Origin: Chondrosia reniformis
Taxonomy: Eukaryota; Porifera; Demospongiae; Chondrillida; Chondrillidae
Direction: 5' to 3'
Assembly (NCBI GenBank): GCA_947172415.1
Contig: OX359198.1
Location: 5,177,401 to 5,241,400 of the forward strand
DNA: 64,000 bases
Shown here: positions 9,860 to 14,047 of the stretch, in pieces
Numbering within the stretch: the first letter of the stretch is position 1
How the letters are laid out: every line of letters starts with the position of its first letter
Program-made: the position numbers and the translations under genes
Notes under the pieces: model-generated
Told to the model about the DNA's origin: nothing
The model's input: only the letters and a program-made list of their open reading frames with translations
The model's database searches: none

Positions 9860-12800
9860 TCATACTTTCGTTCTCTTCTCCATTTCCTTGGTCCATTCAC
9901 TCTCTGAGTCTATAGCAGAGAGGTAATCCTCCTCTTCTTTTAAGTCTGTTTGGCCAGATTGTGTCTTCTCCAAGCCACCTTTCATGTTTCTAGAATCTAT
10001 GTCTTCACATTGACGAGATACTTCAGACAACATTATGCTAAGCTAAAGAAAAATAACATAAAGTCATAAAATCATAAAGTTGTACTTAATATATAATTAC
10101 ATACATGACAGCAATCTTGAGCTCAATCATTACATGTAAAACATTTTAGTATTTACTCTATACGTAGCTAAGCTACGTATCTCTCACCATAATTAAGTTC
10201 ATAAACTACATTATAATTTCTACCAAATGAACTGATATAAGCTAACAGTTAGTATAAAGTAATTTTCAGTACATATAATCAAAATGATCAAAATATATAA
10301 TTTTGAGTACAAAATCCAACATTCAGACCAGCAGTATGCCCATGCAATATCTTGCTATATTATTTAAAGTGCATGGGCTAGGAGTGCTTTATGTGATTTA
10401 TAGCACTCCGATTTGCCTTGTACTTCATTTATCAGAACCTTGGCCCACAAATCAAATAAACCACGTGGCCCACTTTAAGTAACACATAAAGTATGAGCTT
10501 TAGAAAATTTGTTGCAGCTTTACGAATATTATGTGCACATGCATCAACTAAGCTTAGCCTATATACCTTAATTAATAGATATATAATCATAATGATTTGG
10601 TACATTGGAACTTACTGAAAATTCAGCAGAGTAGTGTTTCTCATCTTTATTGGCCTTGTCAAGCTCCTCCAGTGGAAAGACTATGCTGTAATGATAGTTG
10701 GGCTTGGCCACTGCTCCAAGTGACTCCTGTGATTCTTTGCTATTCCCTAGTAGAGGAACACATATATACATACAACACTGTACTGTTGCTGCAGCTCAAT
10801 AATTAACAACTAAATGTGACAAGTATATTGTACGTACATACATAACAGTAATCTAAATTTTAAATTTTACATTTATGTGTATGTTTACAGTAAAAGGTCT
10901 ACGTATATATAGGGAACTAAATCTGATTTGGATGAGGATGCAGGAGTCATACAAGAGTGTGTATACATACATACATACGTACATACAAATATCTTGATAT
11001 ACAGTCTCAGCCTACACGGCCAGCTCAATCAACTCACTCAAGGCTTGCTCCATATCCCTCTCTTCTCTACTTCTCATTTGCCCACTCCTTGGATGTTTAT
11101 GCTGGTGCAGATGTCTGCGATATTCTGCCAAAGTTTTCCCTTCCCCATTTTGCGATTTAGCCTAGCAAAAACATCATAAGAGTGATGGTGGTGATGAACA
11201 GCAAAAAGGACCTCATCAAAAAGGGTGCTTTATAGCTCCCAGAGAGGCCATATGTATTGTTGATACTTGGTAGCTTTGAGGTATGGATTCTCTCCAAATG
11301 TTAGTCATGTTAAATAAATTTGAGGTGAGCCTTAAGTAATCATAGACGAAGCTTGCTAGTTCAGTGGGACATTATTTTACATACAAAAATGACCTAAAAT
11401 GACCTATGTATATCTTTGTATAACATGCAAACCTGCGGTTTATCATAGCTCTCTTGTTGAACCAGATGCATTCTTGTGAACTTTGTGTTGAACCAGAGCT
11501 GAAACATTTTCTCCTAAAAAAGATAGAGAAAATGTAGTGATTGTGTATTATTTTAAGGAACAGACCTATTTATGTACATACCTTTCTGGAAAGTTTTGAA
11601 GAATGATAAAATTCAATTTTGACATCTCCACAAAGAGGCAGGTCCTGTTCAAGCTTTATCTCAGCTTCTCCCTTAGCCTTCTGCAAGTCATACACCTTTG
11701 AGGTGAATATCTTTGTGCTCGTTAAACAGATGACAAATGATGGAGCTACATACACATACATACAGCAATAACAAATGTATATTTATGTGAGTGCTGCCAG
11801 TAGAAACAATCTGTCATGCATGTTGTATATATATACAATATCATCATCATTGAACTCTGGATATTATCCCAGCCCACTCATGTCTCCTGAGGAGCGCAAT
11901 GAGCTAATGGGCAGAACTGAAGTTCACTTGATGGGAACCAGAGTCTCCCCTTAGCCACTCAAAAGATGGTTGAGTCATAGACAGCTGTTTTGTCCTTATT
12001 AGGACTCATCAGTATGGAAATTTGATCTGCTAATAAGTACACACTTTTGGCTGTACCCCTTATCTGCTGATTAGGAAACCACAAGCTTTTTTGCTTTGGG
12101 GAGTACATATTAGCCAGACTATATAGCCACTCCAACTTCCATTGTATGCCATACTGATGAGTCACGAGAGAGTGATACTTAATTAGTATGTAAAGAACCT
12201 AAGGTACAAATTAAAGGCAAAAATCATTTACAACAACTTCCTCCACTGTAATTAGGAATTGTATGAAACTTGAATCCCCTCAATAATACGGTCTCCACAG
12301 AGTACTGTATGTGATTCTTTAACTTGTAACCATAATACTGTACATATCTCCTTTGGCTTGGAATGGTGACACCCTGTACAGAGGAAAACAGTCAACATGG
12401 CATATGTATGCATGTGCACCCTGCTATAAACAGAGTTCTTTCACGAACAATAGTACGTTCTTTCATATACCGTATGCTTACAAATTTTCGCGGGACGTAT
12501 ATTTCGCGAATGCCCCTCAAGTGGGGATTTTAGCGATTTTTTTCGCGAAGCCCCGAGTGTGCCTGAAGATTGACTCCTTTTGTGTACGTGGTATCAACAT
12601 CTGCAGCTGGAGAACTCAGACGTTGGTGACAAGTCCTTAACAAAAACGTCTACGGTCTTGAAGTAATCCTCGATCGTCTTCGCGAGCATTCTGCATCACA
12701 CGTGAAAGGCCTAGGTATGGGGAAATTTTCGCGTTTTTATTTTCACGAACCCATGCTGATTCGTGAAAATCGCGAAATTTACGTCCCGCGAAAATTTGTA

Positions 12801-14047
12801 CGCATACGGGTATTTATATTTAGCATACATGTAACAATAGCATGTACATGAAAAATCTAAAACACCATGCATGCATATTTCAAAAGAAATTAAAATGTGT
12901 ATAAAGTTAAGGATGCATGTACATTATACTCCCTAAATTCTCTCACTCATAAGTCTATATAATTACTCATACAAGTCTACAAGGAAAGGAGTTTAAACTT
13001 CAGTAAGTTAGCAACAGTACAGCTACAGTGCTCAAGTTAATTGCAAAATACATAAATTACCTTGAAACTGAAAGCTATTATCAAAATCATATAAGTTTTA
13101 ATGTATACATTATGTACTAATGTACAGTCAACCGCAGGCATGCGTACCTTATTGTTTTTGGTTCTAGCTTCTCCATAATAGTCTAAAGCCTCAGACGTCA
13201 CACTGAAGTTATAGTTATACAGGAGATATGCACAAATCATTACACCAGTACGACCCTACATATATATATATATATATATATAGGTAAAGTTGACTATTAC
13301 AATTACATTTATATATATATGTATATGAATAACGAATTACTCTGCCATCTAGACAATGCACAATTGCAACATTCTTGTAATCCTTATTCAGCCATTCATC
13401 CATGTCTTCACAAAATGGTGTGATTAGCTCAAATGGAGGAGCATTATCATCATCAAATGGAAATAGAGCAACTCTGCCCTGAAACTTGGCTGGATCGTAA
13501 AACTTTTCTGAACACCTGCAGTGCAGATATATATACGTATTTAGAGAGAGCAATACATGTATTAGAACACATGTACTCAATTTATATATACGTATCTCTC
13601 CTTATACTGTATGTATGTATATACACATCCGAAGCAGCCAGTACAAGATCTGATGTATATATATATATATATAGATAGCTAGATATCTAGAGTAATTCTA
13701 TACTGAACATTTAATTTTAAAACTCACAAATTATATACTTTGTAATGTCCTAGATGCCTCAAGTCTAAAAATTTAACTACATCTTCCAACTTGTTCCTGT
13801 AGAGACCTTCTATCTTCTCAGATGGAAACCCCATTGCAATAACATTGTGTTTAATATCTAATTAAATGCATAGGCTAGAAGATATATATTCATAAAAGCT
13901 TAAATTATCATGCACAGTATGGGTTGAATTTAGGCAGTTTTACGAATTTAAAGTATCTCTTTGCAGCCTACATGCCATGTCGAGATCAAATCCTTCTTCT
14001 TCAAGTCGTCTGTTTTGTTTAGACACTAATCTCTTCAGATTATTCAT
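9860..14047 (-). CDS. PTEN: PTEN-family phosphatase, complete copy in unit 1 (9 exons, 389 aa)
   Basis: Nine phase-consistent exons: 13972-14047, 13728-13857, 13341-13515, 13148-13255, 12232-12373, 11582-11745, 11433-11513, 10616-10726 and 9860-10042. The total of 1,170 nt gives 389 aa (human PTEN 403). Seen: an N-terminus like the PIP2-binding motif ([14 protein letters not shown]), [18 protein letters not shown], a WPD-like loop [10 protein letters not shown], the P-loop HCLDGRGRTG (split by intron 3), the TI loop [12 protein letters not shown]2 strands ([29 protein letters not shown]), an acidic tail [15 protein letters not shown] and C-terminal RTKV. PTEN dephosphorylates PIP3 at the membrane. 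Here the catalytic Cys and Arg are kept, but human H93, K125 and K128 are replaced by D, L and R. Intron 4 contains a MITE (12470-12810). Confidence 0.95.
12470..12810. mobile_element. 341-bp MITE in PTEN intron 4 (unit 1 only)
   Basis: Terminal inverted repeats of about 40 bp: CCGTATGCTTACAAATTTTC onward to ATTTCGCGA at the left, mirrored at the right end, flanked by TA. The empty sites are the paralogous introns near 8665, 23605 and 26970 (TTTCATATATTAGC). The interior is CpG-rich (TTCGCG, CCCGCG), foreign to the AT-rich host. No coding capacity. Confidence 0.9.
13258..13282. repeat. (TA)n microsatellite in PTEN intron 3
   Basis: TATATATA run directly upstream of the exon 4 acceptor of the full PTEN in unit 1. 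A shorter version lies at about 27408-27426 in unit 2. It occupies the polypyrimidine-tract position of that acceptor. Confidence 0.9.

Follow-up and report, generated by a model that had tools for sequence, protein, structure and literature searches.

In a duplicated PTEN gene of the sponge Chondrosia reniformis, several of the positions that recognise the PIP3 head group have been rewritten. This rewriting of the pocket is real and is shared by three full gene copies (units 0, 1 and 2, here called the array), a canonical PTEN gene is retained on the same chromosome, and a parallel case is present in another clade. Units 1 and 2 lie in the window, which is the whole stretch of 64,000 nucleotides that was analysed (Table 1). 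The catalytic residues D92, C124 and R130 are kept, as is the PTEN build, in which a phosphatase and a C2 domain are followed by an acidic tail and a terminal TKV; the substitutions are K13N, H93D, K125L, A126D and K128R (human PTEN numbering, which is the sponge index plus one). Judging from these sequences, we lean towards regarding the array genes as functionally diverged PTEN duplicates that would encode cysteine phosphatases no longer serving as normal PIP3 3-phosphatases beside the retained canonical PTEN.

Table 1. Positions of the PTEN copies and of other features (window positions unless a contig is named).
Feature	Position	Strand	Remarks
Unit 1 PTEN	9860-14047	(-)	full copy, ten exons, GT-AG splicing, open 437-aa protein
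Unit 1 exon 1	13972-14047	(-)	start codon, N-terminal basic motif, K13 changed to N
Unit 1 exon 2	13728-13857	(-)	
Unit 1 exon 3	13341-13515	(-)	acid loop [10 protein letters not shown] (13434-13463) and P-loop start HCLDGR
Unit 1 codons D92, D93	13446-13451	(-)	D92 (13449-13451) kept; D93 (13446-13448) is His in the canonical gene
Unit 1 codons H123-C124-L125-D126-G127-R128	13341-13358	(-)	
Unit 1 exon 4	13148-13255	(-)	starts GRTG, R130 kept
Unit 1 exon 5	12232-12373	(-)	TI loop TIPSQR
Unit 1 exons 6-10	9860-11745	(-)	C2 domain, acidic tail, C-terminal TKV; exons 6, 7, 8, 9, 10 at 11582-11745, 11433-11513, 11038-11161, 10616-10746, 9860-10042
Unit 2 PTEN	24810-28160	(-)	full copy, pocket changes as in unit 1, nine exons, 401 aa
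Unit 2 P-loop codons HCLDGR	27483-27500	(-)	
Unit 2 acid loop	27576-27605	(-)	same ten letters as in unit 1
Unit 2 codons D92, D93	27588-27593	(-)	D92 (27591-27593), D93 (27588-27590)
Unit 0 PTEN	C10:5173323-5177009		third full array copy, left of the window
Partial PTEN copy	6032-9096	(-)	exons 4-10 only, starts GCTG (R130C)
Second partial PTEN copy	20967-24030	(-)	exons 4-10 only, starts GCTG (R130C)
Canonical PTEN	C10:5309831-5314787	(+)	FPFDDHNAPP and HCKAGK/GRTG (split loop)
Distant contig 5 gene	C5:219.7k		PTEN/TPTE-like, HCKAGKGRTG
Tandem segmental duplication	914-10275 / 15825-25215		98.8 percent over 9.4 kb
Death-domain open frame	16621-16968	(-)	Pfam Death above cut-off
309-aa open frame	18969-19895	(-)	seven-residue LKEEDTS-type repeats
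Open frames with cadherin repeats	40842-42323, 48480-49943, 51228-51743, 54338-54730	(-)	51228-51743 below Pfam cut-off

An earlier note on this DNA had read the P-loop HCLDGRGRTG and the altered acid loop in units 1 and 2, with H93D, K125L, A126D and K128R changed and D92, C124 and R130 kept. These readings are borne out in both units and hold for unit 0 as well. The changes were also said to be fixed in the family, which applies to the three array copies but not to the genome as a whole, where a canonical PTEN exists. Likewise, the proposed joint loss of basic residues stands for H93 and K125 but not for K128, because arginine at this position is still basic. The array carries one change beyond those listed before (K13N), and the basic residues lost are thus H93, K125 and K13, with two acids gained (H93D and A126D). 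The residues R14, R15, R47, T167 and Q171 and the TI loop are kept. The suggestion of altered specificity gains from a pocket change that is real and common to three copies and from the presence of a canonical PTEN, but it is weakened by the conservative nature of K128R.

The P-loop is split by the exon 3/4 junction (HCLDGR and GRTG, with exon 4 continuing GRTGVM). In unit 1 the exon 3 donor reads gtaatt and exon 4 is preceded by atgtag, and the intron between them is 85 bases long, against 77 bases in unit 2. All three full copies have open spliced frames with GT-AG sites; in unit 2, exons 8 and 9 are fused by a frame-keeping deletion, and the protein is 36 residues shorter than that of unit 1. 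Inspection by eye of the exon 3/4 intron of units 1 and 2 found no junction that restores KAGK, and a shift of the exon boundary as the origin of LDGR is disfavoured by the separate island of changes at D92-H93. Because the intron splits the loop, a degenerate P-loop DNA pattern gave no match in the window. Similarly, the pattern HCK[AG]GKG matched only the contig 5 gene in the whole genome, since the loop of the canonical gene is split as well.

Comparison of a provisional exon 1-6 protein with solved structures returned PTEN chains in the first five PDB rows (e.g. 7jvx and 1d5r), the best with an E value of 4.3e-97. A Pfam scan of the unit 1 protein placed the PTEN C2 domain (PF10409) at 86.7 bits against a curated cut-off of 27.1, and DSPc (PF00782) below its cut-off (29.7 versus 33.5 bits). 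The array loop HCLDGRGRTG fits the phosphatase pattern HCxxGxxRTG with its catalytic Cys and Arg. Taken together, the PTEN chain match and the agreement of three copies indicate that the observed motif is more than a chance occurrence. Because the canonical PIP3-type basic residues H93, K125 and K128 read D, L and R, we class the array as PTEN by descent and not as PIP3-type PTEN.

A search for a PTEN with HCKAGKGRTG elsewhere in the same genome, which the earlier note had proposed, was positive. The genome comprises 117,379,552 bases in 15 contigs (7,657,449 bases for contig 10 and 8,804,818 for contig 5), and the catalytic-exon search gave at least 17 exon matches, which resolve to units 0, 1 and 2, the two partial copies, the canonical gene and the distant contig 5 gene. 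The canonical gene is separated from unit 2 by about 104 kb and is canonical at every residue in question, and its presence fits an origin of the array by duplication and divergence. Its protein ends in TRV and that of the array in TKV, which is also the C-terminus of human PTEN. A PTEN_C2 match at C10:7378664-7379416 was rejected as a second PTEN because its loops, GWPDHLAPS and QGGKGRTG, look tensin-like.

Each partial PTEN copy sits 3' of a full copy. In both, exons 1-3 are not recognisable and the reading is open from exon 4 to the TKV stop; these copies may be relics, or else alternative 3' halves. The window also contains a tandem segmental duplication, and further repeated stretches of the array match at 81-94 percent. 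The Death-domain frame and the 309-aa frame have partners in unit 1, as they fall inside the duplicated stretch. The frames with cadherin repeats perhaps belong to large cadherin genes.

Three protein searches yielded 1592, 1831 and 1818 matches (in the last, the scored candidates were those sharing most words), and the best 120 of each were combined into a pool of 198 proteins. All members of this pool of best matches have C124 and R130 (198/198), with D92 kept in 166, H93 in 173, K125 in 164, A126 in 162 and K128 in 165; H93, K125 and K128 are kept jointly in 163. The sequence HCLDGRGR occurs in none of the 198. Another row being gapped, 33 pool proteins lack K125. All 33 keep C124 and R130, and the presence of D or N at position 126 in 31 of them is striking; H93 is kept in 8, D92 in 2 and K128 in 1. 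Position 13 is K in 158 of the 163 pool proteins that have both K125 and K128, and N in the array.

A tree was built from 224 columns that exclude the motif, with 70 rows, of which four are genes from this genome, 35 are altered proteins and 31 are hand-picked others (P0102, which has a loop gap, was left out). The array and the canonical gene of the same genome cluster together (100/99, starred), and 34 altered proteins from the best-match pool form one separate clade (100/98, starred). Derivation of the array from this clade was rejected (p-AU 3.9e-12; 2.7e-4 with exon 1-2 columns), and a tree of exons 1-2 only, in which 69 columns for 70 rows are few, also places the array with the canonical gene. 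The third altered type, P0093, reads HCKDGKGRTG with A126D as its sole change and clusters with the coral rows P0027 and P0043 (100/100, starred; Porites lobata is a coral species). On the motif-free tree, residue 126 changes three times when D, N, S and T are taken as one state, residues 125 and 92 three times each, and residue 93 six times.

Within the 34-protein clade, K125 is lost in 33, D or N stands at 126 in 32, K128 is replaced in 33, and C124 and R130 are kept in all. D92 is kept in just 2, which may reflect lost activity in that clade. In 30 of the 34, D or E stands one position before D92, as in many canonical PTENs, and in 7 of the 34 D92 is absent and a Glu directly precedes R130 (as in GVERT). 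The only member with a species name, P0131, is from the demosponge Dysidea avara; we infer that the other 33 are also from sponges, since they branch next to the array, the canonical copy and other PTENs (94/96, not starred). P0026, which is named Haliclona caerulea (a demosponge), groups with cnidarian PTENs in the tree and counts against a tidy sponge group; it is a mislabel, a contaminant sequence or a true oddity. A tail stretch, AGVDITTG, is common to the altered clade (P0014, P0013, P0128 and others; 22 aligned proteins, mostly 90 percent or higher) and is absent from the array protein.

Because the nucleophile, the phosphate-binding Arg and the general acid are all kept, the array proteins are predicted to be active and are expected to work as cysteine phosphatases. 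With H93 and A126 changed to acids and K125 lost, binding of the highly charged PIP3 head group is expected to be poorer, and the normal PIP3 3-phosphatase role is likely lost. The array would then target a less charged phosphoinositide, another ring position or a phosphoprotein, with protein-phosphotyrosine activity possible as one among several outcomes, and the canonical PTEN on the same chromosome would cover the PIP3 role. Published mutants, in passages that concern single sites and not the array combination, bear on this reading. According to the accessible part of PMC6182344, A126G confers 5-phosphatase activity on PIP3 in human PTEN. The accessible part of PMC7190743 reports that human A126D is dominant-negative, also in PTEN-null cells, and that it is among six variants whose stability differs between cell lines; according to the authors, substrate switching might explain such dominant-negative variants.

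The array proteins probably act on another substrate or block the normal enzyme, and weak or antagonistic forms are possible. As a pure antagonist, an array protein would trap substrate, bind membranes or the canonical PTEN with little hydrolysis and raise PI3K output where expressed. We regard this as possible, if unlikely. It would agree with the dominant-negative behaviour of A126D, with the typically null or dominant-negative character of catalytic-pocket variants (PMC7190743, in part), with the rarity of D92 in the altered clade and with R130C in the partial copies. However, a pure antagonist does not need D92, C124 and R130 together, and all three are kept in the three full copies. A broader proposal, which we consider doubtful, is that the PTEN lipid pocket was rebuilt at least twice in sponges toward an acidic or amidic loop (CxDGxxRT or CxNGxxRT), giving PTEN-fold enzymes for other phosphoinositides, with the general acid as if shifted into the P-loop in 7 of the 34 clade proteins.

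The pattern of divergence between the array and the canonical gene is uneven. Apart from seven loop codons, codons 76-335 are far more similar than the gene ends. Synonymous divergence reaches saturation in exon 1, amounts to 0.7-1.0 in exon 2, falls to 0-0.18 across exons 4-9 and is again high, at 0.55-0.75, in exon 10. From the end of intron 5 through exon 9 the introns of the full copies align with the canonical gene too (about 88-90 percent), whereas introns 1-4 hardly align. Within exon 3, 17 of 175 bases differ from the canonical gene in all three array copies: 5 in the first 19 bases, 3 at D92-H93, 8 in the last 13 bases (C124-K128) and 1 elsewhere. Codons 76-335 include 224 that can be compared across the four genes; of these, 12 differ from the canonical gene in every array copy, by seven replacements (H93, K125, A126, K128 and three others) and five synonymous changes (three of them at D92, C124 and G127). 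All seven loop codons are among the 12 (hypergeometric 1.6e-10, with zone and codons picked post hoc). The accessible part of PMC4743836 lists H93, K125, A126 and K128 among PTEN substrate contacts. Four of the seven replacements fall in its 12 contacts (p 1.6e-4 for codons 76-335), as do 4 of 24 over the whole coding sequence (p about 0.004).

These findings suggest that conversion between the two kinds of gene probably homogenised the gene middle, and that selection would have kept two active-site islands apart. D92-H93 and C124-K128 are thus probably islands of old divergence that gene conversion has spared. Exon 2 of unit 1 differs from that of units 0 and 2, which is nearer to the canonical gene. 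This is in line with gene conversion. Old conversion may conceivably have reached across exons 1-2 too, a caveat to the separation of the array from the altered clade.

Constraint on the array was strong formerly and is loose or partial now. The former rests on exon 2, in which the differences between array and canonical gene are mostly synonymous (12-14.5 synonymous versus 1-6.5 replacement differences; dS 0.7-1.0, dN 0.01-0.06; Fisher p 3e-9 and 4e-8 for units 2 and 1, respectively, the two units tested). The latter follows from dN/dS values of 0.51-0.58 among the three copies, which are reduced only weakly relative to neutrality (Fisher p 0.03, 0.05 and 0.08). These ratios, the deletion in unit 2 and the two 5'-truncated copies could also be taken to mean that the array consists of decaying duplicates and that the pocket changes are drift. 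We consider this improbable, as all three full copies keep open frames and GT-AG sites, exon 2 bears the mark of constraint, the changes are concentrated in substrate contacts and the same residues are altered in another lineage.

That the array proteins are instead ordinary PIP3 phosphatases, in which the changes are tolerated and R128 and its neighbours compensate, is highly improbable despite the charge retained in K128R and the conservation of R14, R15, R47, T167 and Q171, as K125, K128 and H93 are reported to matter for PIP3 specificity by PTEN mutagenesis (PMC7316235, in part, citing Lee 1999) and 163 of the 198 best-match proteins retain all three.

The functionally diverged phosphatase that we favour is of interest because the PTEN active site is near-invariant in the animal proteins of the best-match pool outside one altered clade. 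Single PTEN active-site changes have been associated with human disease. Together, a canonical PTEN and three copies with similar middle exons bar the pocket amount to a natural experiment on PTEN specificity, and the parallel change in the other clade suggests that pocket rewriting can be repeated. Should they act on another lipid, the array genes would widen the roles of the PTEN fold in animals; should they be inactive, they would be natural PI3K-pathway modulators in an early-branching animal. A literature search, mostly without subscription journals, found no apparent report of altered sponge PTENs, and HCKAGKGRTG as text had no match in the literature searched. The accessible part of PMC4322731 contains nothing on the PTEN lysines.

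Compared with animal PTEN (PDB chains and the canonical sponge copy), the array is the same in domain order, C124, R130, D92, TI loop and C2 domain, but differs by the five substitutions described above. Voltage-sensing phosphatases (TPTE/VSP) likewise have a PTEN-like phosphatase altered at the A126 position, which is Gly in these enzymes (PMC6182344, in part) and Asp in the array; a Pfam scan (E up to 0.001) found no voltage-sensor domain in the 437-aa array protein. A126D also makes the array loop (HCLDGRGRT) fit the myotubularin pattern CxDGxxRT, a likeness of a single residue and no proof. Four distinct myotubularin loops of the genome, at 7 of 10 loci examined, have the form HC[ST]DGWDRT, and the same scan found no myotubularin domain (PF06602) in the array protein. 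The 34-protein altered clade (e.g. P0014, P0119, P0128 and P0131) shares with the array the loss of K125, D or N at 126 and the loss of K128, and P0119 reads HCLDGLGRTG. However, this clade is a separate branch, in which D92 is mostly absent and most members carry the AGVDITTG tail.
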